From positions 670,841 to 734,840 of the forward strand of contig NZ_JAMTCH010000003.1 of NCBI RefSeq assembly GCF_024171735.1: DNA of 64,000 nucleotides. The letters are read 5' to 3'. Positions 7,991 to 21,119 of this stretch are shown here, in pieces. A model generated the notes under the pieces. It was not told where the DNA came from. It was given only the letters and a program-made list of their open reading frames with translations, and ran no database searches. How positions within the stretch are numbered: the first letter of the stretch is position 1; each line of letters starts with the position of its first letter. This DNA is from Prauserella alba (GTDB lineage: Bacteria > Actinomycetota > Actinomycetes > Mycobacteriales > Pseudonocardiaceae). The position numbers and the translations under genes are program-made.

Positions 7991-9025
7991 TCAGGTGATG
8001 TCCGCGTCGGCGGGCAGTGCCGGTCGTTCGGCGACGTCGGTGAGCAGCCGGGCAGCGGAGGCGAGCATCGGCAGCACGGTCGCGGCCCCGGTGCCCGCGC
8101 CGAGCCGGATGTTCAGGTCGAGTACCGGCTCCAGGTCCAGATGCTCCAGCGCAACCACCTGGGCGGGCTCGGCCGCACGGTGCGCCGCCAGCCACCAGGA
8201 CCGTGCGCCCGGTGCGAGTTCCTCCGCCAGGAGCGCCGCCGCGGTCGACGGCAGGCCGTCCAGCACCACCGGCGTCCGCCGCACCGCAGCCTGTGCCAGA
8301 AACCCCGTCATCGCGGCGAGATCCGCGCCGCCCGCGGTGCGCAGCAGCCCGAGCGGATCGCCCGTGACCGGCCGGCAGCGCCGCAGCGCGTCCCGGATGG
8401 CGGTGGTCTTGCGCATCCACGCCCTGTCGTCGATCCCGGACCCGCGCCCGACCACGGCCACCGGTTCGGTGTCGGTCAGCGCTGCGACCAGCGTCGCAGC
8501 GGGGGTTGTGACGCCGGCGCCGAGCTCGGCGGCCACGAGCGCGTCGGCGCCCTCGTCGACCTCCGCATCGGCAGCCCGCATCCCGGCGCGTACCGCGGCC
8601 TCGGTCTCGTCCTCGGTGAGCGCGTCCGCCGCGGCGATCGAGCCCGACCCGCTGCGCACGTGGTCCGGTCCTGAGCCACCCGCCGTGCCCACGTCGAGCA
8701 CCCGGATCCCGGCGCCCGCCACGTCGGCGAGGACGTTCAGCGGTGCCGAGCCGGCGTCGAGCGCGTCGAGCAGTGCCCGCGTCGTGCCGGGACCGCCGAG
8801 GGACACGCCGTCGGCGGTGACCCCGTGATCGGCGGCGAACACCACGACGCGCATCCGCCGCAGCGGCCGGGGCGGCGTCCGCCCCTGGCACGCGGCGAGC
8901 CAGGCGCCGAGCCGTTCCAGCCTGCCCAGTGAGCGCGGGGGTGACAGCAGCGCCGCGTGCCGCTGCAGTGCACCGGCGCGCGCGTTCTCGTCGGGAAGAG
9001 TGACGGGACCGAACTCGATGTTCAC
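7991..9025 (-). CDS. cobT: Nicotinate-nucleotide--dimethylbenzimidazole phosphoribosyltransferase
   Basis: CobT makes alpha-ribazole phosphate from nicotinate mononucleotide and 5,6-dimethylbenzimidazole for the lower ligand of cobalamin. The 344-residue protein shows the typical N-terminal SLGRLERLGAWLA segment, FAADHGVTADGVS, the Gly-rich GAGVTTPAATL region, the ligand-binding GLLRTAGGADLAAMTG stretch, and a C-terminal LNIRLGAGTGAA. The start is GTG 9025. A TAGCTT -10-like element at 9032-9037 sits inside the last codons of the upstream regulator, so cobT may have its own leaderless promoter. The usual partners cobU and cobS are not next to it. A cobalamin riboswitch and importer occur about 50 kb away. 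Confidence 0.94.
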   Translation of the reverse strand: MNIEFGPVTLPDENARAGALQRHAALLSPPRSLGRLERLGAWLAACQGRTPPRPLRRMRVVVFAADHGVTADGVSLGGPGTTRALLDALDAGSAPLNVLADVAGAGIRVLDVGTAGGSGPDHVRSGSGSIAAADALTEDETEAAVRAGMRAADAEVDEGADALVAAELGAGVTTPAATLVAALTDTEPVAVVGRGSGIDDRAWMRKTTAIRDALRRCRPVTGDPLGLLRTAGGADLAAMTGFLAQAAVRRTPVVLDGLPSTAAALLAEELAPGARSWWLAAHRAAEPAQVVALEHLDLEPVLDLNIRLGAGTGAATVLPMLASAARLLTDVAERPALPADADIT

Positions 9026-9029
9026 GGGC

Positions 9030-9989
9030 TCAAGCTACCGCGCCTCGCTCCGAGAGCAGCGCCCTGGCCAGTGAGCTGTCACAGATCAGCACGTCGAGCA
9101 CCGTGGTGTGCAGTGCTCCGAGGACACCGTCGGCCTTCTCGGGCCCCGCAGCCACGCCCGCGACCGTCGGGATCGCCGCCAGGTCGGCCAGCGACACGGC
9201 GAGCACCCGGTCGTCGGCGGGCCCGGTGACGGCCTTGCCCGCGGCGTCGAAGAACCGCGCGCAGACGTCGCCGACCGGCCCCGCGGCGTCCAATCCGGCC
9301 CGCTCCTGCTCGGACAGGTTCATCGCCGTCACCAACGACGCCGATGAGCCGCGGCCGACCCGGCCGATGCCGGCCAGCGCGACCTGCACGCGCCGGGCGG
9401 CGTCCAGCGTTGCCTGGACGCTCGGCTCGGCCAGCAGCACGTCCCTGCCCTCCTTGGAGGTGAGTAACGCGGGGGCGTGGAGGCGCTGGTACCGGCCACC
9501 GAGCCGACCCGCCAGGTCACGGACCAGCTCCTCGCCGCTGATGGCGGTGTCCACTGCGGATAGTCCGCCGACGAGTGGCAGCACTTCGACGTCGAGTCCG
9601 CCCTCGTCCGGAATGGACTGCACCAGTGCTTGAAGTCCTGTGCCCCAGGAAACACCGATCCGCTGTCCCGGTTGGATCGTGTCCAGCAACCAGCGTGCGC
9701 CGAGGTCGCCCACGCGCTGCAGTGGACGGTCGCCGCTGTGGATCTCGGCGACCCGGCAGTCCCGCAGGCCGAACCGCTCGGCCAGTTCCGCCTCGAGATC
9801 CATGTCGCGCCCCGTCGGGTCGTTGATCTCGATGCGCACGATGCCGTGCTCCCGCGCGGCCGTGAGCATCCGCGACACGCTGGAGCGGCTGATGTCGAGT
9901 GCCTTGGCGACCTCGTGCTGCGAGCGGCCTTCCTCGTAGTACAGCCGTGCCGCTGCGACGAGTGCTTGCTGATCACGGGGCGGTGGCAT
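9030..9989 (-). CDS. SorC/DeoR-type sugar-binding transcriptional regulator
   Basis: The 319-residue protein has an N-terminal helix-turn-helix (QHEVAKALDISRSSVSRMLTAA, residues about 24-45), followed by a large effector domain of the SorC family. That domain includes GVSWGTGLQALVQSI and VLPLVGGL, the fold that binds phosphorylated sugars in this family. It lies 3 nt downstream of the HPr gene and is probably translated from the same mRNA. Palindromes GCACATATGTGC upstream of the HPr gene and upstream of the oxidoreductase operon at 15331 are good candidates for its operator. The inference is that it controls the polyol PTS/dehydrogenase island and senses a PTS-derived phosphate. Confidence 0.9.
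   Translation of the reverse strand: MPPPRDQQALVAAARLYYEEGRSQHEVAKALDISRSSVSRMLTAAREHGIVRIEINDPTGRDMDLEAELAERFGLRDCRVAEIHSGDRPLQRVGDLGARWLLDTIQPGQRIGVSWGTGLQALVQSIPDEGGLDVEVLPLVGGLSAVDTAISGEELVRDLAGRLGGRYQRLHAPALLTSKEGRDVLLAEPSVQATLDAARRVQVALAGIGRVGRGSSASLVTAMNLSEQERAGLDAAGPVGDVCARFFDAAGKAVTGPADDRVLAVSLADLAAIPTVAGVAAGPEKADGVLGALHTTVLDVLICDSSLARALLSERGAVA
9032..9037 (-). promoter_or_regulatory. Candidate leaderless -10 element (TAGCTT) of cobT
   Basis: TAGCTT on the minus strand ends 6 nt before the cobT GTG and overlaps the 3' end of the regulator gene. Confidence 0.4.
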
Positions 9990-9992
9990 CGA

Positions 9993-10259
9993 TCACGCGT
10001 CCAAATCGGACTCGAGCATGCGGGACAGTTCGGTGAGCGCGTCGCCGGCGCCGTCGCCGTCGGTGCGCAGGACGACCTCTTCACCGTGCCCGATGGCGAG
10101 GCCCAGTACGGACAACATACTGCGAGCGTCCACGAGGTCGGAGCCGGGCCTGCCGATGCGGACGTCGCTGCCCGTGGCGGTCGCGGCTTTGACGAACTGG
10201 CTGGCCGGCCTGGCGTGAAGTCCGACGGACGAGCCGACCTTGACGTGGATTTCCGGCAT
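9993..10259 (-). CDS. ptsH: HPr phosphocarrier protein of the PTS
   Basis: HPr passes phosphate from enzyme I to the sugar-specific EIIA. The 88-residue protein has the active-site histidine in VGLHARPASQFVK near residue 15 and the second conserved region around Ser in SMLSVLGLAIGHGEEV, close to the canonical regulatory serine position. ATG 10259 is preceded by GGGAG at good spacing. It is the first gene of a two-gene unit with the SorC-type regulator. No enzyme I gene is present in the window. Its place beside the glucitol-type EII genes suggests a dedicated phosphocarrier or the general HPr of this genome; the sequence cannot decide which. Confidence 0.93.
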   Translation of the reverse strand: MPEIHVKVGSSVGLHARPASQFVKAATATGSDVRIGRPGSDLVDARSMLSVLGLAIGHGEEVVLRTDGDGAGDALTELSRMLESDLDA

Positions 10260-10357
10260 GGAGGCGCTCCCTTGCTTCCCGGTCCCGGTCGTCGCCGGGG
10301 CCTTGTCGACGGTTCGACGGCATGTTACACACATCACTGGCAAACGTGAACAAGCTT

Positions 10358-10371
10358 TGCACATATGTGCA
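10358..10371. promoter_or_regulatory. Palindromic operator candidate TGCACATATGTGCA upstream of the HPr/regulator unit
   Basis: A perfect 14-bp palindrome lies 98 nt upstream of the HPr start. The same core GCACATATGTGC occurs at 15163-15174, and a 12-bp CACATATGTGCA at 15244-15255 before the oxidoreductase operon. It is followed at 10377-10424 by related half-sites (TGCAATGTGC, GCAATGTGCA, GCGACGTGCA). The neighbouring SorC-family regulator is the likely ligand. Confidence 0.65.
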
Positions 10372-10376
10372 GCAGT

Positions 10377-10424
10377 CTGCAATGTGCGACGGGCGCAATG
10401 TGCAGACGGGTGCGACGTGCAACG
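10377..10424. repeat. Cluster of degenerate half-sites related to the operator
   Basis: Three directly repeated variants of GCAATGTGC/GCGACGTGC lie within 48 bp next to the palindrome at 10358-10371. They resemble half-operators and could support cooperative binding of a tetrameric SorC-type regulator. Confidence 0.4.
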
Positions 10425-10567
10425 GGTGCGAACGAGACGGATGACGGGCTCGGGGCACCGATCATGCAGGCGCCGGACCGGCCGGAGGGTGGCCGGGTCC
10501 GCACGTCTATCAGCGCATATCCGCCGGGGGCCGAGAAGGAGGCCAAGGAATGCAAGTGCTTGCTGTA

Positions 10568-10700
10568 GTGACTCCGCCCACGTGGGGACGCGCGGGCTTC
10601 CTCTGGTGCTGCTCAGGCAGTGTTGGAGAGGACCAGCCCGGCCCTGGTTGCGATGTTGATTGCCGCGTTGACGTCGGCGTTCGCCGCGTGCCCGCAGCGT
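10568..10700 (-). ncRNA. Possible omega RNA at the 3' end of tnpB and right end of the element
   Basis: In IS200/IS605 elements the guide RNA of TnpB overlaps the end of tnpB and the right-end hairpin. The matching region here contains the hairpin around 10576-10598. This is placed by position and family knowledge only; limits are approximate. Confidence 0.3.
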
Positions 10701-11827
10701 TGGCAGGTGAAATCGGCTTGACTGACACGGTTCTCCGCTGCGACATGTCCACATTCGGGACATGTGCGGGAGGTGTTGCGGGCATCCACCGCGACCACTC
10801 GGCGACCGGCGCTTTCAGCCTTGTCCGCCAGGATCGAAAGGAACTGCCCCCAACCTGCGTCGAGGATCGAGCGGTTGAGCCCGGCTTTCGCTGCTGCGCG
10901 GTTGGGCAGGAATGCGCCGGACTGGTCCGGGTGTGGTTTGGGTTTCGGTGCGGTGGTCATGCCGCTGATGTTGAGGTCTTCGTGCGCTATCACGTCGTTG
11001 TCACGCACGAGCGCGAGCGCGGTCTTGTGGTGGTGGTCCAGCCGCTGTCGACGAATCTTGGCGTGGAGGTTGCCGACCTTGCGCGCTGCATGCCGGTGTT
11101 TCTTCGTGCGCAGCGACGTACGGACCTTCTTGGGGAACTCGGCCAGTGCCCGTTGCGCCTCGGCAAGATCCTCGGCGGCCTGCTGGGCGTGCCGGGGGCC
11201 AGCGATGTGCTTGCCGCCGCTGGTGGTCGCGAAGTGCTCGACACCCATATCGATACCGGTAGTGCGGCCGGTCTCGGGCAGTGGCTCGGCAGGAACGCCC
11301 TCGCAGGACAGAACAACGAACCACCGGTTCGCCTCCCGCTTGACACTCACCGTTTTCACCATGCCGCGCACGGGCCGGTGCTGGTGGACCCGCACGTGCC
11401 CGACGCCTTGCAGGCGCACGCGCACCTGACTCTCGTGTGGGGCGGAGTTCCACCGGCACCCATCGCCGTCCTTCGGGAAATCGACCGTGTCGAAGTGGCC
11501 CTTTCCCTTGAAACGCGGATATCCGGGCACCTCGCCAGCTTTGACGCGGCGGAAGAACGCCTCGAACGCCTTGTTCAGCCGGCGCAGCGTGGCCTGTTGC
11601 GACGAAAACGACCAGCGTCCCTGCCCGCCCTGATCCGCTGCGCGGATAGCTGTGAGCTGCCCGGACTGATCGCCGTAGCGCACGCGGGTCTTCGACCCGT
11701 GCCGATAGGCATCACGGCGTTCCTGCAACGCCGCGTTGTACAGGTCGCAGTGATCAGCCAACATCGCCCGCAACGCCTGCTGCTGCTTACTGGTCGGACG
11801 CAGAAGGAACTTGTACGACCGTCGCAC
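10613..11827 (-). CDS. tnpB: TnpB, RNA-guided endonuclease of IS200/IS605
   Basis: The 404-residue protein is a full-length TnpB, ancestor-type relative of Cas12. The split RuvC site is complete: Asp in TGIDMG near residue 192, Glu in AHEDLN near 290, and Asp in NADVNAA near 385. A four-cysteine zinc finger (CPECG and CQRCG) lies between the last two. The N-terminal helix-turn-helix region (RRSYKFLLRPTSKQQ) is also intact. The gene starts 2 nt after the stop of tnpA, so the two are probably co-expressed. TnpB promotes element retention by RNA-guided cleavage of vacated sites. No lesion is visible, so it may still be active. Confidence 0.92.
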   Translation of the reverse strand: MRRSYKFLLRPTSKQQQALRAMLADHCDLYNAALQERRDAYRHGSKTRVRYGDQSGQLTAIRAADQGGQGRWSFSSQQATLRRLNKAFEAFFRRVKAGEVPGYPRFKGKGHFDTVDFPKDGDGCRWNSAPHESQVRVRLQGVGHVRVHQHRPVRGMVKTVSVKREANRWFVVLSCEGVPAEPLPETGRTTGIDMGVEHFATTSGGKHIAGPRHAQQAAEDLAEAQRALAEFPKKVRTSLRTKKHRHAARKVGNLHAKIRRQRLDHHHKTALALVRDNDVIAHEDLNISGMTTAPKPKPHPDQSGAFLPNRAAAKAGLNRSILDAGWGQFLSILADKAESAGRRVVAVDARNTSRTCPECGHVAAENRVSQADFTCQRCGHAANADVNAAINIATRAGLVLSNTA

Positions 11828-11829
11828 GG

Positions 11830-12252
11830 CTACACGCGCTCAGACTGCGTATCGACGTACTCCTGCACCGTGTCGGCCGACACCGAACCGACCGAGGCGG
11901 CCAAGTACGACGACGACCACAACGTCGGCAGCCGCGAACGCAGATGCGGGAACTCCTCGCGCAACACACGCGAGGTGAATCCTTTGAACTGGTTCGCTAC
12001 ATACGACGCTGACGATTTCGGATCATGCTTGACGAACAGGTGCACCTGGTCGGGCATCACTTCCAGCGCCACGACCTCCCACCCCCGCTCGTCGGCCTTC
12101 TGCCGGATCAACTCGTCCAAGCGTTCCCCGACCCGGCCACCCAGAACCCGGCGGCGGTACTTCGAACACCACACCACATGCAGTCCGAGGTCGCACACGC
12201 CGCCGGAGAACTGGCGAACCTTCCTGGTGACGGACACCACAACAGTATACAA
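11830..12252 (-). CDS. tnpA: IS200/IS605 TnpA, Y1 HUH transposase
   Basis: The 140-residue protein is of normal length for IS200-type transposases acting on single-stranded DNA. It contains the family start LGLHVVWCSKYRRRVL, the HUH-related metal motif in PDQVHLFV near residue 70, and the C-terminal helix with the nucleophilic tyrosine in VQEYVDTQ. The annotated ATG at 12252 may be a few codons upstream of the true start (a GTG at MYTVV*V* is also possible). It is followed immediately by tnpB. No disruption is visible. Confidence 0.9.
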   Translation of the reverse strand: MYTVVVSVTRKVRQFSGGVCDLGLHVVWCSKYRRRVLGGRVGERLDELIRQKADERGWEVVALEVMPDQVHLFVKHDPKSSASYVANQFKGFTSRVLREEFPHLRSRLPTLWSSSYLAASVGSVSADTVQEYVDTQSERV

Positions 12253-12378
12253 ACACCACTCTTATAAGAATGAGGGGAGGGAGGCGAGTGGGACCAGCGC
12301 AGGTAAAAAACCGATCACGCGAAACAAGGCGTCGATCCGCCCCGCAGCCAAAGCAACAGGCCCGCTCGCTGAAATCTG

Positions 12379-13011
12379 ATGGCGCAGCAGCAGCCGGCTC
12401 AGCCGGAGACCGAGACGAGCGGGGGTGTGCTGGGTGTCTTCGAGTGGCTGGGAACCCATTTCATCGGCCTGTTCGAGGAAGCGGGCTCGCAGTTCGTCGA
12501 TCTGGTGACCGGCATCCTGCCGACGCTGATCGTGCTGCTCACGTTCATGTATGCGCTCACCACGTTCATCGGCGAGGAGCGCGTCACGCGTGCGGTCCAG
12601 TGGTGCGGCCGGTGGTGGATCACCCGCTACTCGGTCATGCCGATCCTCGCGCTGCTGATGCTGACGAACCCGATGGCCTACTCGTTCGGGCGGTTCCTGC
12701 CCGAGCGGTACAAGCCCGCGTTCTACGACTCCGCGGTGTCGTTCGTGCACCCGGTGACCACGTTCTTCCCCTACGCGAACGCCGGCGAGCTGTTCGTCTG
12801 GTTCGGCATCGCCAACGGCGTCACACAGCTCGGCGAGTCCACGGTGCCGCTGGCGCTGCGCTACTTCCTCGTGGGCATCCTCGTGATCTTCATCCGCGGC
12901 ATCATCACCGAGAAACTCACCGCGTTCATGATCAAACGGACCGGCCGCAGCGAGGTCTTCGCCGATTTCGACCGGCAATTCGAGCAGGCGAAGGCGGGTG
13001 AGAAGGCATGA
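12379..13011 (+). CDS. srlA: PTS glucitol/sorbitol-type EIIC component
   Basis: This is the membrane channel part (IIC2) of a glucitol-family phosphotransferase system, 210 residues. It has an N-terminal amphipathic region, then hydrophobic helices around LPTLIVLLTFMYALTTFIG and the family segment MLTNPMAYSFGRFLPERYKPAFYDS, near-diagnostic for SrlA. It ends with a cytoplasmic charged tail. The stop overlaps the srlE start by 4 nt. No good Shine-Dalgarno sequence precedes ATG 12379, and no copy of the GCACATATGTGC operator lies between the IS element and the gene. Transported substrate in this family is a polyol; which one is not shown by sequence. Confidence 0.93.
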   Translation: MAQQQPAQPETETSGGVLGVFEWLGTHFIGLFEEAGSQFVDLVTGILPTLIVLLTFMYALTTFIGEERVTRAVQWCGRWWITRYSVMPILALLMLTNPMAYSFGRFLPERYKPAFYDSAVSFVHPVTTFFPYANAGELFVWFGIANGVTQLGESTVPLALRYFLVGILVIFIRGIITEKLTAFMIKRTGRSEVFADFDRQFEQAKAGEKA

Positions 13012-14126
13012 CCGAGCACGAGGCGACGTCAGGGCAGGACACGACGGCGACCGGTACGGAATCGTCGTCCACGGTCTTCGTCCGCGCGGGTGCAGGCGGC
13101 TGGGGACCCGGCCTGACCCTGCGGGCCGACGAGACGCGCACGAAGGTGCTGTCGGTGACCGGCGGCGGGATCCACCCGGTGGCGCAGAAGATCGCCGACC
13201 TCACCGGGGCCGAGGCGGTGGACGGGTTCAACACGACCGTCCCCGACGACGAAGTGGTGGCGGCCGTCATCAACTGCGGCGGCACCGCCCGTATCGGCGT
13301 CTACCCGCGCAAGGGCATCCCCACCGTGGACGTCTATCCGGGTGCCCCCGGAGGGCCGCTGGCGAAGTTCATCACCGAGGAGCTGTTCGTCTCCGCGGTG
13401 GGGATGAACGAGATCGCGCGGTCCACATCGGACGGCGAGGTCGAGTCGGCCAAGGGAACGAGCACTGCCGAGGGTGACGGGGCGCCGGGTGGTGCGGCGT
13501 CCTCCGGTGGTGCGGTGCCGCCACGGGGTGACCGGCCGTCCGCGTCGGCGGTGGCGGCGACCCTGCCGGTCGGCGGCCCGCTGGGCAAGGCGTTCAACGC
13601 GGTCACCAACGTGTTCGTCGGGTTCGGCTCCGCCGTGGGCACGTTCGTCAACACGATGCTGGCGGCGGGCAGGCAGACGGTCGATCTGACGCTGAAGACC
13701 ATTCTCCCGTTCATGGCCTACGTGAGCCTGCTGCTCGGCATCGTCATGTACACGGGCGTGGCCGAATGGATGGGCCAGGTGCTCTCGCCCATCGCGAGCA
13801 ATCCGTTCGGCCTGCTCGCGATCAGCTTCGTCGTCGCGCTGCCGTTCCTGTCGCCGGTGCTCGGTCCGGGTGCCGCGATCGCGCAGGTCGTCGGCACGCT
13901 CATGGGCAGTCAGATCGCGATCGGGGCGCTGCCGGTGCAGTACGCGCTGCCGACGCTGTTCGCCATCAACGGCCAGGTGGGCTGTGACTTTGTGCCGGTC
14001 GGCCTGGCGCTCGGCGAGGCGAAACCGGAAACCGTGGCGGTCGGCACCCCTGCCGTGCTGATCAGCCGCATGATCACATCGCCGCTTGCGGTCGTCATTG
14101 CGTGGGCCGCAAGCTTCGGTCTCTAG
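13008..14126 (+). CDS. srlE: PTS glucitol/sorbitol-type EIIBC component
   Basis: The 372-residue protein joins an N-terminal EIIB domain to a C-terminal membrane EIIC1 domain. The phosphorylated cysteine is in VINCGGTARIGVYP near residue 88. A Gly/Ser/Pro linker of about 50 residues (140-190) precedes membrane helices from about 200 to 372, with a conserved FAINGQVGCDFVPVGLALGEAK segment split here only by the line of description. ATG 13008 overlaps the srlA stop. Length exceeds enteric SrlE mainly through the linker. It forms the phosphorylating transporter with SrlA and SrlB, delivering the polyol as a phosphate into the cytoplasm. Confidence 0.93.
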   Translation: MTEHEATSGQDTTATGTESSSTVFVRAGAGGWGPGLTLRADETRTKVLSVTGGGIHPVAQKIADLTGAEAVDGFNTTVPDDEVVAAVINCGGTARIGVYPRKGIPTVDVYPGAPGGPLAKFITEELFVSAVGMNEIARSTSDGEVESAKGTSTAEGDGAPGGAASSGGAVPPRGDRPSASAVAATLPVGGPLGKAFNAVTNVFVGFGSAVGTFVNTMLAAGRQTVDLTLKTILPFMAYVSLLLGIVMYTGVAEWMGQVLSPIASNPFGLLAISFVVALPFLSPVLGPGAAIAQVVGTLMGSQIAIGALPVQYALPTLFAINGQVGCDFVPVGLALGEAKPETVAVGTPAVLISRMITSPLAVVIAWAASFGL

Positions 14127-14160
14127 CGCCGGTCGCGAGTGCGGGTTCGAGGAGGAACAC

Positions 14161-14535
14161 ATGAGCTTCTATTACGAGAGCACGGTCCTGCGGGCCGGGG
14201 ACGAGGCCGCGGAGATGGTCGACGGCGGCGTCGTCATCCTGTACGCCGACCCCATTCCGGACGCGCTGGAAAGCGTGAGCGTGGTGCACGGCCCTGCAAC
14301 GGGACCGGCGCGCGAGATCCGTACCGGCGACGTGTTCAGCATCGGTGACGAGGACGTCGAAGTGATCGCGGTGGGGGACAGGGCCCACGAGAACCTGAGC
14401 ACGCTCGGGCACATCGTCGTGTACCTGAATCCCGACGAGAGCACGGAATTGCTACCGGGTGCCGTGCATGCCAAGGGCACGGTCTCGCCGCCGGCCGCGG
14501 GTGCGCGGGTCGGGTTCCGGGGAGCGACGCCGTGA
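14161..14535 (+). CDS. srlB: PTS glucitol/sorbitol-type EIIA component
   Basis: This soluble 124-residue protein accepts phosphate from HPr and passes it to the EIIB domain of SrlE. Family features are the beta-rich fold with VVILYADPIPDALES near residue 25 and the LGHIVVYLNPDEST stretch near residue 84, which contains a conserved histidine. GAGGAGG (14149-14155) lies 5 nt before ATG 14161, the strongest ribosome binding site of the operon, consistent with the 34-nt gap after srlE. The stop overlaps gutM. Confidence 0.92.
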   Translation: MSFYYESTVLRAGDEAAEMVDGGVVILYADPIPDALESVSVVHGPATGPAREIRTGDVFSIGDEDVEVIAVGDRAHENLSTLGHIVVYLNPDESTELLPGAVHAKGTVSPPAAGARVGFRGATP

Positions 14536-14942
14536 CCTGGCAGGCGCTGGTGCTGATCCTGGGTGCGTTCGTGGTGGCGGGCGTGCTGAGCTACCGGCAG
14601 CACCTGGCGTATCAGAGCGCGGTCAACGCACTCGCCGACGACGAGAACCGCAGCGGCGTGCTCCTGGTCAGCGGGCGGGCGAAGGGCAGGCTCCGCGGCG
14701 CGATCGTGCTGTTGGTGATCGATCGCAGGCGCGGTGAGATCACCCGGGCACAGGCGATGCACGGCGCGTCGGTGTTCGCCCGGTTCGCCGAGCGGCCCGA
14801 ACTGGTGGGTCCGGTCGACGGTGCCGAGGAGCGGGCCGGATCGGCGGCGATCGCCACGGCGCTGCGTGAGGCGATCGGCATGGCGGGACGGCTCAACGCG
14901 GGCGGACTGCGTTCGAGCCGGCCCCGGACACTCCGCGGCTGA
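14532..14942 (+). CDS. gutM: GutM-like protein of glucitol PTS operons
   Basis: The 136-residue protein has one N-terminal membrane helix (ALVLILGAFVVAGVLSY), then the family pattern with SGRAKGRLRGAIVLLVIDRRRGEI. GutM is described as an activator of the enteric gut operon, although its single helix and lack of a helix-turn-helix leave the mechanism uncertain. The GTG at 14532 overlaps the srlB stop, so all four PTS genes form one transcript. The strong hairpin at 14968-15025 ends it. Confidence 0.8.
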   Translation: MTWQALVLILGAFVVAGVLSYRQHLAYQSAVNALADDENRSGVLLVSGRAKGRLRGAIVLLVIDRRRGEITRAQAMHGASVFARFAERPELVGPVDGAEERAGSAAIATALREAIGMAGRLNAGGLRSSRPRTLRG

Positions 14943-14967
14943 GCAGGCGGCTGAGCAGGCGGACACG

Positions 14968-15025
14968 ACACATGCGGGCGGCCGCGTCTCCCGGAGCGAA
15001 CGGGAGACGCGCCGCCCGCATGTGT
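14968..15025. terminator. Long hairpin terminator after the PTS operon
   Basis: An almost perfect 25/26-bp inverted repeat (arms about 14968-14993 and 15001-15025, loop about 7 nt, one bulged G) follows gutM. It separates the PTS operon from the control region of the oxidoreductase operon. Confidence 0.8.
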
Positions 15026-15160
15026 GCGGATGGCCCTCGCGGTACGGGACCTGGCACGGGCTGCTGGGCGGCGATGAGGGGCCGGCGTCACCGCGGGCGG
15101 CCGGGCGGTGCATCGCGCTGCAGCGGGGCCGGCCCGTGTACCCATGTGCACCCATAACGC

Positions 15161-15176
15161 GCGCACATATGTGCAC
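15161..15176. promoter_or_regulatory. Operator candidate GCACATATGTGC upstream of the oxidoreductase operon
   Basis: The perfect 12-bp palindrome at 15163-15174 repeats the core of the palindrome at 10358-10371 before the HPr/regulator unit. It is extended by GTGCACATGT on the right (15171-15180), giving overlapping half-sites. It lies about 160 nt before ATG 15331. Confidence 0.65.
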
Positions 15177-15243
15177 ATGTCTGAAGCTTGTGTGCTGCAG
15201 ATCTCCCGTGCTACCAAGGAAGAACCAAGGTGCACATCATACT

Positions 15244-15255
15244 CACATATGTGCA
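15244..15255. promoter_or_regulatory. Second operator candidate (CACATATGTGCA) upstream of the oxidoreductase operon
   Basis: CACATATGTG is a perfect palindrome and matches 12 of 14 positions of the site at 10358-10371. Its centre is 81 bp downstream of the first site, and it is followed by AGATGTGCACG at 15277-15287. Two spaced sites would allow looping repression. Confidence 0.6.
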
Positions 15256-15330
15256 AATGCGGCCGTGTAATGCGGAGATGTGCACGTTCACCCGCATCAG
15301 GCGCGACGAGGCGGACCGGAGGAAACGCGG

Positions 15331-16632
15331 ATGAGGTATGTCGATCGGCTGCGAGAGCGGGAACGGGAACTGGGCCGTCCGGTCCGGGTCGGGCTCGTCG
15401 GTGCGGGGCAGATGGGGCTCGGTTTCGTGGTGCAGGCGAGCCGGATCGACGGGATGGAGGTCGCGGCGATCGCCGACATCACCCCCGATCGTGGCCGCCG
15501 CGCGTTCGCCGAGGCGGGCCGCGGCGACGCCGTGCTGAGCGGCGACCGCGCCGAGCTGGCACGGATGATCGAGGCCGGAACGCCGGTCGTCACCTCGGAC
15601 GCGACCGCGCTGCCCGGCCTGCCGCTGGACGTGCTCGTGGACGCCAGCGGCGTGCCCGAGGTCGGGGCGCAGGTGGCGTTCCACGGCCTGCTGGCAGGCC
15701 AGGACATCGCGATGCTGAACGTCGAATGCGACGTGACCATCGGCTACCTGCTGAAGACCGTCGCCGAGCGGACCGGCCGCGTGTACACGGTGTGCCGCGG
15801 CGACGAGCCCGTCGAGTGCAAGGCCCTCGCCGACTACGTGCGGGACATCGGCTTCGACGTCGTCTGCGCGGGCAAGGGCAAGAACAACCCGCTCCGGCCG
15901 TCGGCCACCCCCGCGTCGTTGACCGAGGAGGCCGAGGCCAAGGGCATGAACCCGCACATGCTCGCCAGCTTCGTCGACGGCTCGAAGACGATGATCGAGA
16001 TGGCTGCGCTGGCCAACGGTGTGGATCTGGCCGTGCCCTCGCGGGGCATGACCGGTCCGCACTGCACGGTCGAGGCGCTGGCGGAGACGTTCCGGCCGGA
16101 GTCCGACGGCGGTGTGCTGCCGGGCGAGGGCATGGTGGACTACTGCACCGGACCGGTCGCGCCCGGTGTGTTCGTCATCGGCCGCAGCGACCACCCCGCG
16201 GTCATGTCCGAGATGGCCTACCTGGGCATGGGCAAGGGCCCGTACTACGCGTTCTACCGTCCGTACCACCTGGCGAGCGTCGAGGCGCCGTTGTCGGTCG
16301 CCAAGGCCGTGGCCGACCGTACGCCGAGTCTCGCCCCCGTCGCCTGGAACGCCGAGGTGCTCGCGGTCGCCAAGCGTGACCTCGCCGCGGGCGAGGCGAT
16401 CGACGGCATCGGCGGGGAGACCGTGTACGGCATCACCGACCGGGCCACGGCGGTACGCGACGACGGGCACCTCCCGCTCGGCCTCGTCGCGGGCGGCCGG
16501 GTGCTCCGCGACGTTCCCGAGGGCACGGTGCTGACAGCCGAGGACGTCGCCGTGGACGAGAGCACGACGATCGCCACCCTGCGGCGGTTGCAGGACCGGC
16601 TGCTCGCGGGCGAGGAGGTGACGGTCCGGTGA
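15331..16632 (+). CDS. Rossmann/SAF-domain oxidoreductase, homoserine-dehydrogenase-like (DRL-like, COG4091 type)
   Basis: The 433-residue protein has an N-terminal NAD(P)-binding fold ([15 protein letters not shown], residues 18-32) and a central catalytic region with [16 protein letters not shown] and [19 protein letters not shown]-terminal SAF-like domain (about 345-425) contains [22 protein letters not shown] lies 7 nt before ATG 15331. From memory, the DXR-like enzyme DRL of Brucella, an alternative deoxyxylulose phosphate reductoisomerase, belongs to this COG4091 architecture. Other members are only called homoserine dehydrogenase-like. It is first in a coupled operon with E1/E2 genes. 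I infer it acts on the PTS-made polyol phosphate; reaction and direction are unproven. Confidence 0.85.
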
Positions 16633-17657
16633 CGCTCACCGCCGACCCCGGCCTGGCGAAGCACGCGCTCACCACGATGTGGACGATCCGCCGCTTCGAG
16701 GAGGCGGTCGACGACATGTTCGCGCGAGGGCTCATGCACGGCACGATGCACCTGTCGATCGGCCAGGAGGCCGTGCCGACGGGCGCCTGCATGGCACTGT
16801 CCGAAGGCGACTACATCACGTCGACCCACCGCGGTCACGGCCACTGCATCGCCAAGGGCGCGAAGCTGGACGCGATGATGGCCGAGCTGCTGGCCAAGGA
16901 GACCGGCTACTGCCGGGGCCGCGGCGGATCGATGCACATCGCCGACGTCGCCACCGGCAACCTCGGGGCCAACGGCATCGTCGCAGGCGGGGTGCCGATC
17001 GCCGCCGGCGCGGGGCTGGCCGTGCGCATGCGCGGCGGGTCGCAGGTCGTCGTCAGCTTCTTCGGCGACGGTGCGGTCAACGAGGGTGCCTGGCACGAAG
17101 GGGTCAACCTCGCCGCGATCTGGGACCTGCCGGTGGTGTTCGTGTGCGAGAACAACCGCTACGGGATGTCGATGTCGGTGGACAGGGCGTTCAACGTCGA
17201 CACACTCGCCGAACGTGCGCGCGGGTACGGCATTCCCGGGGTGACGGTGGACGGCAACGATCCGCAGGCCGTGCACGACGTCGTCACCGACGCCGTGCAG
17301 CGTGCCCGGTCGGGAGGCGGGCCGTCGTTCGTGGAAGCGCTGACCTACCGCTGGAAGGGCCACTCCAAGAGCGACAAGAACCTCTACCGCACCCGTGAGG
17401 AGATCGAGAGCTGGCGCGAACGTGACCCGATCGCGGCGTTCGAGTCGGCCGTCACCGGTGCTGCCGCGGCGACGGCACCGTCCGTGCCACCCGCACTGTC
17501 CGAATCGGACGTCGAGGAGTGCCGCATCCTCGCGCGCGACCGCGTGCGGGAGGCGATCCGCACCGCGAGCGCCGCGCCGGACGCCGACGCCGCCACGTTG
17601 ACCGACGCCGTGTACGCCCCGGCGGGGGCGCCGATCGCCGGAGGAACCCGAGGATGA
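16629..17657 (+). CDS. TPP-dependent dehydrogenase E1 alpha subunit (acetoin-dehydrogenase-like)
   Basis: The 342-residue protein is an E1 alpha of the pyruvate/acetoin dehydrogenase group. The thiamine-pyrophosphate motif runs from [13 protein letters not shown] near residue 140 to CENNRYG about 30 residues later. [13 protein letters not shown] near residue 62 and the [10 protein letters not shown] loop are also present. It lacks the long N-terminus of branched-chain E1 alpha and matches the acetoin dehydrogenase AcoA size. The GTG at 16629 overlaps the preceding stop (GTGA). The acyloin-cleaving versus 2-oxoacid-decarboxylating specificity cannot be read from these motifs. Confidence 0.92.
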
Positions 17658-18742
17658 CGACGACCAGCGACGTGGGCACCGGCGCGGTGACGGCCGCCGG
17701 AACAGAACCGGTCACCGGCGGCGCTGCGGCCGGTGGAACGGCTCCGGCAGTGGCCGAACCGCGCACCCTCACCTACTCCGAGGCCGTGCGCGAGGCGATG
17801 GCACAGGCCATGACGGCGGACGAGAGCGTGTTCCTGTTCGGCGAGGACGTGGGCACCTACGGCGGTGCGTTCGGCGTCAGCGGTGACCTGGTGCACCGGT
17901 TCGGCACCGAGCGGGTGCGCGACACCCCGATCAGCGAACTCGGCATCGTCGGCGCCGCGGTCGGTGCCGGGCTCGCGGGCATGCGCCCGATCGTGGAGAT
18001 CCAGTTCTCCGACTTCACGGCGCAGGCGATGGACCAGATCGCCAACCAGGCCGCGAAGATCCACTTCATGCTCGGCGGTGCGGCGACCGTGCCGATGGTG
18101 TTGCGCGCGCCCGGCGGTTCGGGAACCGGCGCGGCCGCGCAGCATTCGCAGAGCCTGGAGGCGTGGTTCGCCCACGTGCCGGGGCTGAAGGTGGTCATGC
18201 CGAGCACGGCTGCCGATGCGAAGGGCCTGCTGCTCAGCGCGATCGATGATCCGAACCCGGTGATCGTGCTGGAACACAAACTGCTCTACAAGCAGAGCGG
18301 GCCGGTGCCGGAGGACCCCGTGCGGGTGCCGCTCGGCGAGACGGCCGTCCGGCGCACCGGTGCGGACGTGACGATCGTGGCCACCGGCGTGATGGTGCCG
18401 CGTGCGCTGGAGGCCGCCGAACGGCTCGCCACCGACGGGGTGTCGGCCGCCGTGCTGGACCCGCGCACGCTCCGGCCGCTCGACGATCAGACCATTGTGG
18501 ACAGCGTGGCGGCGACGGGACGGGCCCTGCTGGTGCAGGAGGCGCCGAGAACCGGCGGGTTCATGTCCGAGATCGCGGCGAGGATCGTCGAATCGCCCGC
18601 GTTCGGCCGGTTGCAGGCGCCGGTGTCCCGGCTGTGCGGTCTCGACGTGCCGATCCCGTACGCGCCGCAGCTCGAACAGGCCGCCGTGCCACAGGTCGAC
18701 GACATCGTGGCGAAGGCGGGGGAGTTGGTGCGGCGATGGTGA
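17654..18742 (+). CDS. TPP-dependent dehydrogenase E1 beta subunit (acetoin-dehydrogenase-like)
   Basis: The 362-residue protein carries the catalytic Glu region [17 protein letters not shown] and the [15 protein letters not shown] stretch. It also has [13 protein letters not shown] and the C-terminal transketolase-C region ([18 protein letters not shown]). It pairs with the alpha subunit as an alpha2beta2 E1. A 36-residue Ala/Gly/Thr-rich N-terminal extension precedes the conserved domain and looks disordered. ATG 17654 overlaps the E1 alpha stop, and its own stop lies 7 nt inside the E2 gene, so expression is tightly coupled. Confidence 0.92.
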
Positions 18743-19959
18743 ACAACCAGGTCCCGCTGGTGATGCCGAAGATGTCGATGACCATGACCGAGGGCGTGTT
18801 CGTCGCGTGGCACAAGGCCGAGGGCGACGAGGTGCGCCAGGGCGAGGTCGTCTGTGAGGTCACCACGGACAAAGTCGACATGGAGGTCGAGGCGACGGTC
18901 GACGGTGTCCTCGCCCGCCTCGTCGCCGCGCCCGAGGACGTCATCGCCGTCGGCGACCCCATCGCCTATGTCGACTCCGAGGCAGAGGACCTCCTGGACG
19001 GGCTGTTCGACGGTCCGGCCCCCGAACCGGAGACCGCGACGTCCCCGGAACCGGAGACCGCCGCGGAACCCGCGCCGGCACCGGAATCGGCACCGGAACC
19101 GGCGGGTGTACCGGTGTCGGCGAACGGCGCCGCCGCAGGGGACCCGGCCCGGCCGCCCGCCGCGGTGCCCGCAGCGCGCCGGTTGGCGGCCGAACGGGGA
19201 GTGGACCTCGCGGCGCTGACCGCGACCGGCCCGTGGGACACGATCCGCGTGGCCGACCTTCCGGCGGAGGAACCGAACCGCGGCGGATTGCGGCCGGAAC
19301 CGGCTGCGCCTCCGGCGAGTGCCCCGACCCGGCGGCGGGACGGGCGCGCCGCGGTCGCCCGCCGCATGACGGCGAGCGCCGGCGTGCCGCAGTTCGTGCT
19401 GTACCGCGACGTCGACCTCGACGAGGCGCAGCTCCGGCGAGGCGGGGTGAGCTGGACGGTCGTGTTCACCCGCGTGCTCGCCGCGGCGCTGCGCAGGCAT
19501 CCGGAACTGAACGCCACCTGGACCGACGGCGGGGTGCAACCCTGCGACCGGCTGTCGGTCGCGGTCGCCGTCGACACCGAACGGGGGCTGCTCGCACCCG
19601 TGCTGACCGACCCGGACTCCGGCGACCTGCCGGCCCTGGCCCGGCGCATCGACGACGTCGTCACGCGAGCCAGGACCGGCAGGCTGGAACTGCCGGAGCT
19701 GTCGGCGACCGCGTCGAGCACGATGTCGAACCTCGGCGGCAGCGGCGTCGGCGGTTTCCAGGCCTTGCTGACGCCACCGCAGGCCACCGCACTCGCCGTC
19801 GGCACGGTCGAGCCGCGGGTCGTGCCGGTGCCGGGCGGGATCGGCACCCGGCTGCGGTGCACCCTCGGGCTCAGCGTCGACCACCGGGTCGCCGACGGCG
19901 TCGCAGGCGCGCGGCTGCTGGCCACGATCGGCGAGCTGCTCGGCGGCGAACTCGGATGA
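18736..19959 (+). CDS. Lipoyl-domain acyltransferase E2 of the dehydrogenase complex
   Basis: The 407-residue protein has three parts. An N-terminal lipoyl domain carries the lipoylated lysine in [11 protein letters not shown] near residue 44. A Pro/Glu/Ala-rich flexible linker leads to an E1/E3-binding domain ([15 protein letters not shown] near 140). The C-terminal catalytic domain has the active-site motif DHRVADG near residue 382. It transfers the acyl group from E1 to CoA. Only one lipoyl domain is present. No E3 gene follows, so the complex must borrow a dihydrolipoyl dehydrogenase such as the lpdA at the left edge of the window. Confidence 0.93.
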
Positions 19960-19970
19960 ACCCGGTCTCG

Positions 19971-19976
19971 TATGAT
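19971..19976 (+). promoter_or_regulatory. Candidate leaderless -10 element (TATGAT) of the IspD-like gene
   Basis: TATGAT is followed by 7 nt and GTG 19984, giving the leaderless layout seen at several genes in this window. It would allow expression independent of the upstream operon. Confidence 0.45.
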
Positions 19977-19983
19977 CTCCGCC

Positions 19984-20739
19984 GTGGCGGAACGGAGAAC
20001 CCGGCGAGGCTCGGCGGGCCGGAGCCGCCGGGTTCCGCCCGCGGCCGGCGTCGTGCTGGCCAGCGGGGCCGGGACGCGGGTCGGCGCGGAGATGAACAAG
20101 GTGTACCTGCCGCTGGCCGGGCGCAGGCTGGTGTCGTGGTCGCTCGACGCGTTCGGGCGGGTGCCGGAGATCGGCGCCCTCGTGCTCGTCGCGCGTCCGC
20201 AGGACAAGGACCTGGTGGACTGGGTGCTGGACCGCGAGGTCGACGCCTCCGTGGAGGTCGTCTACGGCGGCGAGACGCGGCAGGAGTCGGAACTGCGGGC
20301 GCTGCGATGGCTGTCGAGCCGTATCGACGAGGGTTCGGTCGACACGGTGCTGATCCACGACGCCGCCCGGCCGCTGGTGAGTCCGGCGCTGATCGCGGGA
20401 GTGCTCCACGAGGCCCGCGAGCACGGCGGTGCGATCCCGGCCTTGCCGGCGGGTGACCTGGTGGCCGTGGACGAGGCGGGCGAGCTCACCGGACAGGAAC
20501 CGGCGTCGATCGTGCGTGCCCAGACACCGCAGGGCTTTCGCGCCGGGCCCCTTCTCGAGGTCTACGAACGTGCCGCACGGGACGACTTCGTGGGCACCGA
20601 CACGGCCTCGGTGATGGAACGGTTCTCCGGGCTTCCGGTGCGGTGGGTGCGCGGGGAGCAGCAGAACTTCAAGATCACCTACCCGCACGATCTGGTGGTC
20701 GCCGAGCAGGTGCTGGCCGCGGCGGATTACCGGACGTGA
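19984..20739 (+). CDS. IspD/TarI-family cytidylyltransferase (MEP cytidylyltransferase-like)
   Basis: The 251-residue protein has the IspD fold signatures: nucleotide-binding VLASGAGTRVGAEMNKVYLPL near residue 28, the family signature LIHDAARPL, TPQGF, and KITYPHDLVVAE near the C-terminus. The catalytic Arg/Lys pair (GTR and NK) is kept. IspD turns 2-C-methyl-D-erythritol 4-phosphate plus CTP into CDP-methylerythritol; TarI homologues use ribitol 5-phosphate. In actinobacteria the housekeeping ispD normally sits with ispF and carD, which are absent here, so this is probably a paralogue. I prefer GTG 19984 because of TATGAT upstream; ATG 19972 is possible. The context beside a polyol PTS suggests a polyol-phosphate substrate. 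Confidence 0.85.
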   Translation: MAERRTRRGSAGRSRRVPPAAGVVLASGAGTRVGAEMNKVYLPLAGRRLVSWSLDAFGRVPEIGALVLVARPQDKDLVDWVLDREVDASVEVVYGGETRQESELRALRWLSSRIDEGSVDTVLIHDAARPLVSPALIAGVLHEAREHGGAIPALPAGDLVAVDEAGELTGQEPASIVRAQTPQGFRAGPLLEVYERAARDDFVGTDTASVMERFSGLPVRWVRGEQQNFKITYPHDLVVAEQVLAAADYRT

Positions 20740-20759: not shown

Positions 20760-21119
20760 ATGGGCGCGAAGGGAACGATCGAACACGCCACGCTCGCCTG
20801 CCACCGGTGCGGCCGCGAGACGCGACACGAACTCGCCTACGCCGGGCGGCTGCTGGTGGTCACCACCTGCCTGACGTGCGGCACCTCCATCGAACGGGAC
20901 GTCCGCCGCCGGTACCTGCAGGACCTGCGGCACCGGATGCTCAGCAAACCCGGCCGCATGGCCCGCAGACTGCGCAGGCACCCGGTGGGGTTCACCGGGT
21001 CGCTGCCGCGCACGGCCGCGCGCAAGCCGTGGCGGCTGGCGGACGAGGTGCGGCTCGTGTGGTCGGCCGCGGCGGACGCCCGCCGCCGTCACTCCGACGA
21101 CGGCGGGCGCGACCGCTGA
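20760..21119 (+). CDS. Small basic zinc-ribbon-like protein
   Basis: The 119-residue protein has two CxxC pairs near the N-terminus (CHRCG and CLTCG, about 24 residues apart), a typical zinc-ribbon spacing. A strongly basic C-terminal half with many Arg residues follows. I do not recognise a named family. ATG 20760 has GAGGA 8 nt upstream; a GTG at 20736 overlapping the IspD stop is an alternative. It is the last gene of the rightward island and convergent with the aldo/keto reductase. A nucleic-acid-binding or small accessory role is possible. Confidence 0.6.
   Translation: MGAKGTIEHATLACHRCGRETRHELAYAGRLLVVTTCLTCGTSIERDVRRRYLQDLRHRMLSKPGRMARRLRRHPVGFTGSLPRTAARKPWRLADEVRLVWSAAADARRRHSDDGGRDR

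Follow-up and report, generated by a model that had tools for sequence, protein, structure and literature searches.

A candidate operon for 2-C-methyl-D-erythritol catabolism in Prauserella alba that carries one half of a putative split IspD

Phosphotransferase system (PTS) proteins of the Srl type are best known for sorbitol, and the sorbitol PTS of Salmonella is said, in the title of a 2004 report by Testa et al., to transport 2-C-methyl-D-erythritol (ME). In isoprenoid synthesis, the beta-arm of the enzyme IspD reaches the active site of its dimer partner. A 2025 review (PMC11770629) places this arm at residues 137-159, where it joins the dimer and holds the site for 2-C-methyl-D-erythritol 4-phosphate (MEP), which is contacted by Arg157 and Lys213; another paper has Thr140 contacting the ME hydroxyls. 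For the type II 1-deoxy-D-xylulose 5-phosphate (DXP) reductoisomerase of Brucella (DXR-II, also called DRL), Carretero-Paulet et al. 2013 (PMC3847144) describe Thr229, Lys191 and Lys193 as anchoring the inhibitor fosmidomycin, Arg320 as lying at the dimer interface, and His at position 250 as typical of most DXR-II, although not absolute. Relatives of all these proteins are encoded together in the stretch analysed here, 64,000 nucleotides of Prauserella alba contig NZ_JAMTCH010000003.1 (the window), where positions 9,030 to 20,739 had been predicted from the letters alone to encode the uptake and breakdown of a branched polyol.

All of the genes named in that original prediction (PTS, HPr, SorC-type regulator, DRL, E1 alpha and beta, E2 and IspD) were found at the places and in the order given there, free of internal stops:

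9030-9989, minus strand: SorC/DeoR-type sugar-binding regulator (Pfam Sugar-bind, 200.5 bits)
9993-10259, minus strand: HPr-like PTS phosphocarrier (Pfam PTS-HPr, 75.8 bits)
12379-13011, plus strand: SrlA-like PTS EIIC (NF049923, 217.9 bits, cut-off 150; the start is an internal Met of the uninterrupted gene)
13008-14126, plus strand: SrlE-like PTS EIIB/C (Pfam EIIBC-GUT_N 179 and EIIBC-GUT_C 137 bits; NF049924, 395.6, cut-off 400)
14161-14535, plus strand: SrlB-like PTS EIIA (Pfam PTSIIA_gutA, 81.5 bits)
14532-14942, plus strand: GutM-like protein (Pfam GutM, 50.4 bits)
15331-16632, plus strand: DRL/DXR-II-like (COG4091-type) oxidoreductase (Pfam DRL_cat, PF21135, 214.5 bits, cut-off 27; plus SAF)
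16629-17657, plus strand: thiamine diphosphate (ThDP) E1 alpha, proposed to be of the acyloin dehydrogenase type and to cleave DXP (Pfam E1_dh, 279 bits; tree; pocket T39, N111, K247)
17654-18742, plus strand: ThDP E1 beta (Pfam Transket_pyr 152 and Transketolase_C 132 bits)
18736-19959, plus strand: lipoyl E2 acyltransferase (Pfam Biotin_lipoyl, E3_binding, 2-oxoacid_dh)
19972-20739, plus strand: IspD paralogue, IspD-A (Pfam IspD, 166 bits; residue tables; AlphaFold model)

The DRL, E1 alpha, E1 beta and E2 genes overlap end to start and ispD lies 12 bases further downstream, a spacing consistent with a single transcription unit.

With a probability of roughly 0.68, we read this as an operon for the use of exogenous ME as a carbon source, by way of MEP and DXP to acetyl-CoA and glyceraldehyde 3-phosphate, in which IspD-A is part of a heterodimer. 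The Srl-type PTS would import ME and phosphorylate it to MEP, and the DRL, probably using NAD+, would run the DXR reaction backwards, oxidising and rearranging MEP into DXP. E1/E2 would then act on DXP, an acyloin, in the way that acetoin dehydrogenase acts on acetoin, breaking the C2-C3 bond to give glyceraldehyde 3-phosphate and acetyl-CoA, with E3 supplied from elsewhere in the genome. The SorC-type regulator would act at GCACATATGTGC-like palindromes and probably senses a sugar phosphate. IspD-A, which has the cytidine triphosphate (CTP) site, would pair with a second protein, IspD-B, that lends the MEP-binding beta-arm, and MEP would be the branch point between catabolism and isoprenoid synthesis. 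We infer all of this, the substrates, reactions, direction, regulator effect and complexes alike, from sequence. The path from PTS through DRL to E1/E2 is the one originally predicted, and it is favoured by the recurrence of the genes, the DRL residues, the E1 tree and carriers in which IspG and DXR-I were not matched; the salvage step that the prediction gave to IspD was not sustained.

Named bacterial genomes were scanned with a DRL alignment, and the best 80 of at least 566 confirmed candidates were taken as genome loci. SrlE was found on 53 of these loci and E1 beta on 50, with both on 44, E1 beta alone on 6, SrlE alone on 9 and neither on 21, many of the last on short contigs. Thirty-eight loci extend over 21 kb or more and were treated as untruncated; on these, SrlE and E1 beta were each found 33 times, both on 31, each alone on 2 and neither on 3. 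These counts indicate more than a chance association of PTS and E1 beta beside DRL, in a conserved neighbourhood. Loci with PTS, E1 and DRL span Actinomycetota, Bacillota, Chloroflexota, Spirochaetota and Pseudomonadota, and the E1 carriers include Amycolatopsis, Nocardia, Kocuria, Cryobacterium, Klenkia, Brachybacterium, Ktedonobacteria, Chloroflexales, Thermovorax, Marinococcus, Bacillus, Spirochaetaceae and Rhizobiales. A set of 86 loci (1.43 Mb) was mapped by calling genes on codon usage and clustering them by similarity; in many of these loci DRL has a SorC-type gene in its vicinity, and one similarity cluster places HPr genes in 8 of the 86. Among 60 relatives of the window strain, DRL_cat was matched in 9 and the sorbitol-PTS EIIB/C in 7, the seven being exactly those with DRL_cat above 200 bits, while the other two DRL_cat matches scored 186 bits at a contig end (G002) and 87 bits (G027).

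DRL was also matched in 110 plasmid records, of which six, one of them unannotated, were examined. Plasmids of Rhizobium and Terrarubrum carry DRL and E1/E2 together with PTS and EI genes, and on an Aminobacter plasmid ATP-binding cassette (ABC) transporters adjoin DRL and E1/E2. A Priestia plasmid has E1/E2/E3, a major facilitator superfamily transporter and an FGGY kinase instead of a PTS, and gene calls on the unannotated plasmid gave the order DRL-E1-E1-E2. On the Rhizobium locus L017 (15732-19233), thiC and genes for a flavin adenine dinucleotide-dependent oxidoreductase, ThiS and a thiazole synthase adjoin the DRL operon. DXP is a thiazole precursor, and at this locus the DXP pool may be shared between the operon and thiazole synthesis.

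When aligned with the Brucella DRL (Protein Data Bank (PDB) chain 3upy), the window DRL was 41.6% identical over 421 residues and retained the equivalents of Lys191, Lys193, Thr229 and Arg320, in keeping with the kinship that had been predicted. Among 87 DRLs, K191, K193 and R320 are present in all 87 and T229 in 80, counts in which K191, K193 and T229 were favoured by the Lys and Thr motifs of the search patterns. In a tree where the DLO1 and DLO2 clades were represented by a single distant DLO-like row (L012), Brucella 3upy nests among E1-linked DRLs, and its nearest relative, at 74.5% identity, is a Rhizobium DRL from an operon with PTS and E1/E2. At the end of beta-2, all 86 readable DRLs of the operon set have Asp or Glu, and Brucella 3upy has SARR. 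An acidic residue there is a NAD-type feature, and it fits an oxidative origin of the DRL family with the Brucella enzyme as a biosynthetic recruit.

The E1 alpha tree held 58 DRL-linked rows and, as reference, aco clusters of Acinetobacter, Mycetohabitans and Enterococcus; own_L103 was left out, and the second, aco-like sets of loci L022 and L023 were counted as aco. Of the DRL-linked rows, 45 form one set (SH-like approximate likelihood ratio test, SH-aLRT, 96) and the other 13 branch nearby, 11 of them Firmicute-like and 2 from spirochaetes. A branch with SH-aLRT 91 parts the aco and DRL-linked rows from human pyruvate dehydrogenase (PDH), Microvirga and the own-genome paralogues L100 and L101, so the E1 alpha lies on the aco-operon side of the tree, apart from human PDH, as its predicted likeness to acetoin dehydrogenase would have it. 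Pocket residues were compared in human PDH numbering (PDB index minus 4), an offset that we take to be set by the phosphorylation-site serines, with Met265 adjoining the Ser264 site. Phe61 of human PDH is Thr in 57 of the 58 DRL-linked rows, and residue 131, which is Phe in PDH and Met in aco, is Asn in 57, with one gap in each case; Met265 is Lys or Arg in all 58, and Glu in 5 of 5 aco rows. The aco pocket set (Phe61, Met131, Glu265) is thus absent from the DRL-linked E1 alpha, and the window equivalents are Thr39, Asn111 and Lys247. We infer that a basic residue in the substrate channel suits a phosphorylated acyloin such as DXP. A standard PDH was considered for E1/E2 and rejected on the tree and the pocket residues.

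The E2 subunits are of more than one kind in the three relatives scanned. Those of Aminobacter and Terrarubrum (L016, L018) combine lipoyl, E3-binding and alpha/beta-hydrolase domains and are annotated as acetoin dehydrogenase E2; this AcoC type was found neither in Priestia (L013) nor in the window, where E2 has a 2-oxoacid_dh domain. On L022 and L023 a second set of E1 alpha, E1 beta and E2 genes lies downstream of the DRL operon and groups with acetoin dehydrogenases.

The direction of the pathway was approached through isoprenoid genes in 28 genomes with DRL loci, with HMG-CoA (hydroxymethylglutaryl-CoA) reductase sought in 18 of them. An IspG match was missing in only three of the 28, Sediminivirga luteola, Terrimesophilobacter mesophilus and Brachybacterium phenoliresistens, which also had no DXR-I match, and all three isolates have PTS, DRL and E1/E2. 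HMG-CoA reductase was found in four of the 18 genomes, these three isolates and P. endophytica (G070). Since neither IspG nor DXR-I was matched in the three isolates, the operon there should lack an isoprenoid outlet and should be catabolic. An IspD-B profile gave no IspD match in the same isolates, a weak negative because this profile, which scored 105 candidates in some large genomes and all candidates in G078-G080, also missed the known IspD-A of L077; it is therefore the missing matches to IspG and DXR-I that carry the catabolic argument. No DXR-I match was obtained for Thermovorax or for four metagenome-assembled genomes (MAGs, which may be incomplete) that retain IspG, so that DRL is probably the working DXR there, which supports MEP and DXP as the true substrate pair. 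The window genome has DXR-I, and its DRL should therefore be dispensable for synthesis. The catabolic direction is better supported than the exact substrate.

Several DRL loci lie among genes of the MEP pathway. The genes carD or cysS are present on 17 of the 80 DRL loci, and the operon, or its DRL-ispD part, sits inside a carD-ispD-ispF-cysS-rlmB block in Microbacteriaceae, Klenkia, Kocuria, Kineosporia and freshwater actinobacteria. Six freshwater actinobacterial MAGs (L041, L047, L051, L053, L054 and L073) have a group of DRL, IspD-A and IspD-B in which PTS and E1 were not seen, and DXR-I was not found in L053, the only one of the six that was tested.

Predicted operators lie in the window at the following places:

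10359-10370, no strand assigned: SorC operator palindrome GCACATATGTGC upstream of HPr
15163-15174, no strand assigned: SorC operator palindrome GCACATATGTGC upstream of DRL
15243-15254, no strand assigned: second operator copy near DRL, with one mismatch to GCACATATGTGC

The exact core CACATATGTG, picked after it had been seen in the window, occurs in 16 exact copies in the 86 mapped loci, against 0.6 expected. All 16 lie outside called genes, in a class of DNA that makes up 9.8% of these loci, and every copy adjoins a SorC, SrlA, DRL, E1 alpha or E3 gene. The core is found in the divergent E1 alpha/SorC promoter of two near-identical Spirochaetaceae and at the separate E1 alpha and E3 units of L042 and L028; it is present in only 12 of the 86 loci. 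The shared palindrome suggests that these operon parts belong to one regulon, on which the regulator would act.

The operon IspD-A retains Arg20, Lys27, Asp106, Arg109, Thr165 and Lys213 (E. coli numbering) and is without the beta-arm residues Thr140 and Arg157. It scores 179.7 against TIGR00453 (cut-off 181.3) and 96.7 against the TarI model NF001183, below the cut-off of 166. The IspD-B gene of the window genome lies between carD and ispF. Residues were tabulated for 54 IspD-A rows, which count some genomes twice (e.g. L026 and G006), for 33 IspD-B rows, selected by place and match and not by arm residues, and for 43 canonical rows, two of which (so classed by a motif rule) appear to be the IspD-A of G037 and G052 and are the source of two Leu at Thr140; weak MobA-like or second matches (L187, L193-L197) were omitted. 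In the order IspD-A, IspD-B and canonical, the residues are kept as follows:

Thr140: 1 of 54, 33 of 33, 41 of 43
Arg157: 3 of 54, 33 of 33, 41 of 43
Arg20: 54 of 54, 3 of 33, 43 of 43
Lys27: 54 of 54, 0 of 33, 43 of 43
Lys213: 54 of 54, 1 of 33, 43 of 43
Asp106: 54 of 54, 29 of 33, 43 of 43

Six of the eight columns that are invariant among 17 IspD-B lie in the arm region. AlphaFold models of both proteins have the IspD fold: that of IspD-B (mean predicted local distance difference test score, pLDDT, 83) is nearest to mycobacterial IspD and has strands in the arm, and that of IspD-A (pLDDT 86) is nearest to B. subtilis IspD, with an arm that is of low confidence and mostly unpaired.

Among the matches listed for the 60 relatives, 25 genomes have IspD-A and 35 a canonical IspD. 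IspD-B or an arm-only remnant accompanies IspD-A in all 25 (Fisher p = 2e-17, kinship ignored), and the matches listed for these 25 genomes include no further IspD whose CTP site is intact. When the IspD-B profile was run on 8 of the 35 canonical-IspD genomes, it gave one match each. In G037 and G052 the partner is a short open frame beside ispD-A, of which only the arm region was matched, with the Thr and Arg kept:

L185, G037:C2 788051-788281, minus strand: arm-only IspD-like open frame of 130 codons, next to ispD-A
L186, G052:C1 2618251-2618463, plus strand: arm-only IspD-like open frame of 134 codons, next to ispD-A

It is possible that these two frames encode minimal arm-donor subunits. 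Together, IspD-A and IspD-B look like a split, heterodimeric IspD, and IspD-A is probably needed for normal isoprenoid synthesis. The original prediction had IspD as a plain salvage branch, an idea that was rejected because the operon protein has lost the MEP-contacting arm residues and a complementary partner or remnant was found; it is better read as a catalytic half. Of the 60 relatives, 25 have IspD-A and only 9 have DRL, so the split is earlier in origin or more widespread than the catabolic operon, which by these distributions appears simply to house IspD-A in some genera. On the best CarD and IspF tree the split would have arisen through 11 changes, a weak count in that only 2 are forced by well-supported branches.

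There are exceptions to this pattern. Nocardia amamiensis has a canonical IspD, an IspD-A and a B-like match, the B-like proteins of Kocuria and Mycolicibacterium sp. J2 have Ser where Thr140 would be, the sequence of Klenkia brasiliensis did not align at that column, and the IspD-B of Pseudonocardia eucalypti spans two frames. Besides an ordinary IspD(F), Salinibacterium (L232, G076) has a second IspD-like protein with the CTP-site residues and Ile at the Thr140 column, which is not of the IspD-A motif type.

A number of observations weigh against ME catabolism as set out above. On the side of transport, a paper that cites the 2004 Salmonella report describes a Salmonella strain that phosphorylates ME by an ATP-dependent kinase and not by the PTS, which makes phosphorylation at C4 by the PTS an assumption here, and the specificity of a PTS is not readable from its sequence. 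E1 beta was not found near DRL on 5 of the 38 long loci, and a Listeria innocua plasmid has PTS and DRL and no E1/E2. Mapped on the DRL tree, the linkage to E1 is scattered and takes 15 changes, so that the link was repeatedly made, lost, or missed on short contigs. An FGGY kinase lies beside DRL in L064, L071, L074, L081, L086 and L093, several of which also have zinc alcohol dehydrogenase or ABC transporter genes; these DRLs may represent a kinase-based variant or serve other sugars. In the window DRL, Brucella position 250 is Thr, where 43 of 87 DRLs have His, and position 351 is Asn instead of Val. The beta-2 acid was rejected as a decisive sign of direction, since it is shared by freshwater DRLs that look biosynthetic, and it leaves the direction of the reaction unfixed. 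The E1 reference set was small, with three aco clusters, two tree-assigned aco sets and three PDH-like rows, on long branches; the very long-branched own-genome paralogue L102 was also placed with the aco rows, and the spirochaete E1 alpha are joined in the tree by an E1 encoded on a C. difficile plasmid, in a stretch without DRL. Within the window, the palindrome count is not significant (3 sites, a number reached by 17 of 100 shuffles), and in the window strain an insertion sequence (IS) element parts srlAEB from the predicted operator. Finally, two Ktedonobacteria (L068/G075 and L066/G074) pair an operon IspD-A with an ordinary full IspD elsewhere, and IspD-B was not found in them.

Other readings of the locus were considered beside these points. 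If it served isoprenoid salvage, with the PTS bringing ME in as MEP, IspD feeding isoprenoids, DRL balancing MEP and DXP, and E1/E2 incidental, one could account for an IspD-A within the operon, for the operon within ispD-ispF blocks of several actinobacteria and for a DRL that looks like the sole DXR in some genomes; the three isolates that keep PTS, DRL and E1/E2 with no IspG or DXR-I match, the E1 beta adjoining DRL on 33 of 38 long loci, and an IspD-A on only 31 of the 80 loci make this very unlikely. It is unlikely, too, that the substrate is some other polyol, be it a pentitol or hexitol without a branch or a branched polyol other than ME, for which DRL would be a polyol-phosphate dehydrogenase and E1/E2 would act on a ketose phosphate or a downstream acyloin. 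The departures of the window DRL at 250 and 351, the sorbitol for which Srl systems are best known, and the DRLs beside FGGY kinases and zinc alcohol dehydrogenases agree with such a substrate, but no sorbitol-6-phosphate dehydrogenase was among the operon proteins scanned (NCBIfam, Pfam), the DXR-II key residues are retained with recurring ispD/ispF neighbours, and the E1 groups with acyloin-cleaving enzymes, for which the methyl ketone DXP would be the best match.

A third possibility leaves only PTS and DRL specific and makes E1/E2 an ordinary pyruvate or acetoin dehydrogenase for PTS-derived pyruvate. We give this little credence: although the nearest solved structures are human PDH E1, the window E2 has a PDH-type acyltransferase domain, and the best NCBIfam model for E1 alpha is a PDH model (below its cut-off), the E1 alpha stands apart from human PDH and from the paralogues L100 and L101 (L102 falling with the aco rows), the pocket residues Phe/Phe/Met of PDH and Phe/Met/Glu of aco are replaced by Thr/Asn/Lys-or-Arg in 57, 57 and 58 of the 58, and L022 and L023 carry a separate aco-type E1 set next to the operon. 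As for IspD-A, a stand-alone TarI-like cytidylyltransferase for another polyol phosphate, with IspD-B a decaying pseudogene, seems doubtful. Such an enzyme would explain the loss of two MEP-contacting residues and the two Ktedonobacteria in which IspD-A stands beside an intact IspD. A pseudogene would hardly be expected to keep Thr140 and Arg157 in every one of 33 rows with Arg20, Lys27 and Lys213 left in just 3, 0 and 1, to have six of its eight invariant columns in the arm region, or to survive in two genomes as a frame of 130-134 codons matched in the arm region alone, beside ispD-A; the TarI model scores 96.7 against its cut-off of 166, and among the matches listed the 25 genomes have no other IspD with an intact CTP site. 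We therefore prefer ME catabolism through MEP and DXP, with a split IspD.

A broader version of this reading, to which we would give about even odds, is that ME catabolism is widespread and undescribed and employs a dedicated ThDP/lipoyl 'DXP dehydrogenase', that the DXR-II of Brucella and rhizobia was recruited from a catabolic MEP dehydrogenase, and that IspD has been split into an obligate heterodimer in many actinobacteria, its catalytic half sometimes placed in a catabolic operon and the other half shrinkable to little beyond the arm. In the open-licence literature, preprints excluded, no description was found of ME catabolism through DRL and E1/E2 or of a two-subunit IspD; this does not prove that they are new. 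Plants contain ME and its glycosides, and the oxidation of isoprene yields 2-methyltetrols as major particle-phase products. If the reading is correct, ME-eating bacteria would be a biological sink for isoprene-derived carbon, isoprenoid and central metabolism would have a new link, and a ThDP/lipoyl complex that acts on a sugar phosphate would be a novelty in enzymology. The pathway would also say where DXR-II came from and why it occurs in organisms that lack a MEP pathway ('class E' in the 2013 survey, PMC3847144), and recruitment from a catabolic MEP dehydrogenase would explain its puzzling, patchy distribution. A split IspD would also change the way in which actinobacterial IspD, an essential enzyme targeted by antibacterials and herbicides, is assayed, because neither half should work alone.

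The IS element that interrupts srlA, and other features close to the operon, are as follows:

10550-10567, plus strand: srlA codons 1-6 by the P. salsuginis L026 reading, severed from the rest by the IS element
10568-12378, minus strand: IS200/IS605-type element inside the 5' end of srlA (Pfam OrfB_IS605/Cas12f1-like_TNB, Y1_Tnp)
10613-11827, minus strand: tnpB of this element (Pfam OrfB_IS605/Cas12f1-like_TNB)
11830-12252, minus strand: tnpA, Y1 transposase of this element (Pfam Y1_Tnp)
20760-21119, plus strand: conserved zinc-ribbon-like protein of 119 residues, CxxC...CxxC (similarity cluster in 13 of the 80 genome loci)

The sequences flanking the element are contiguous in P. salsuginis locus L026, whose DRL is 97% identical to that of the window, and there they fall within the first srlA codons; the element was not found at the srlA site of L026 or of P. 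endophytica L044. Insertion within the first codons leaves the srlAEB genes of the window without their native start and cut off from the upstream palindrome, and it is a strain-level lesion that lies outside the system proper. The zinc-ribbon-like protein, which has no Pfam match above cut-off, directly follows ispD and may belong with IspD-A. Just beyond the regulator, at 7991-9025, there is a CobT-like phosphoribosyltransferase gene, which nothing ties to the system.

Compared with the sorbitol/glucitol PTS, the window system likewise has EIIC, EIIB/C, EIIA and GutM above the Pfam cut-offs, with SrlA above the NCBIfam equivalog cut-off, but SrlE falls just under and SrlB well under theirs. 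With acetoin dehydrogenase (acoABC) it shares a ThDP E1 alpha/beta and a lipoyl E2, a neighbouring place in the E1 alpha tree and, as proposed here, the cleavage of CH3-CO-CHOH-R to acetyl-CoA and an aldehyde; it differs in its own E1 alpha branches and pocket residues and in its linkage to DRL and a polyol PTS, and acetoin or butanediol genes are not among the operon proteins. The window DRL belongs to the DRL_cat family together with Brucella DXR-II (PDB 3upl, 3upy), with Lys191, Lys193, Thr229 and the dimer residue Arg320 conserved, but it is linked to a PTS and E1/E2 operon, has an acidic beta-2 end in place of SARR, would run in the catabolic direction from MEP to DXP, and comes from a genome that also has DXR-I. 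The fold, the CTP loop, Lys27, Asp106 and Lys213 of IspD-A are those of the canonical homodimeric IspD described in PMC11770629, whereas Thr140 and Arg157 are found on a separate IspD-B that lacks Arg20, Lys27 and Lys213, and the two proteins are proposed to form a heterodimer.

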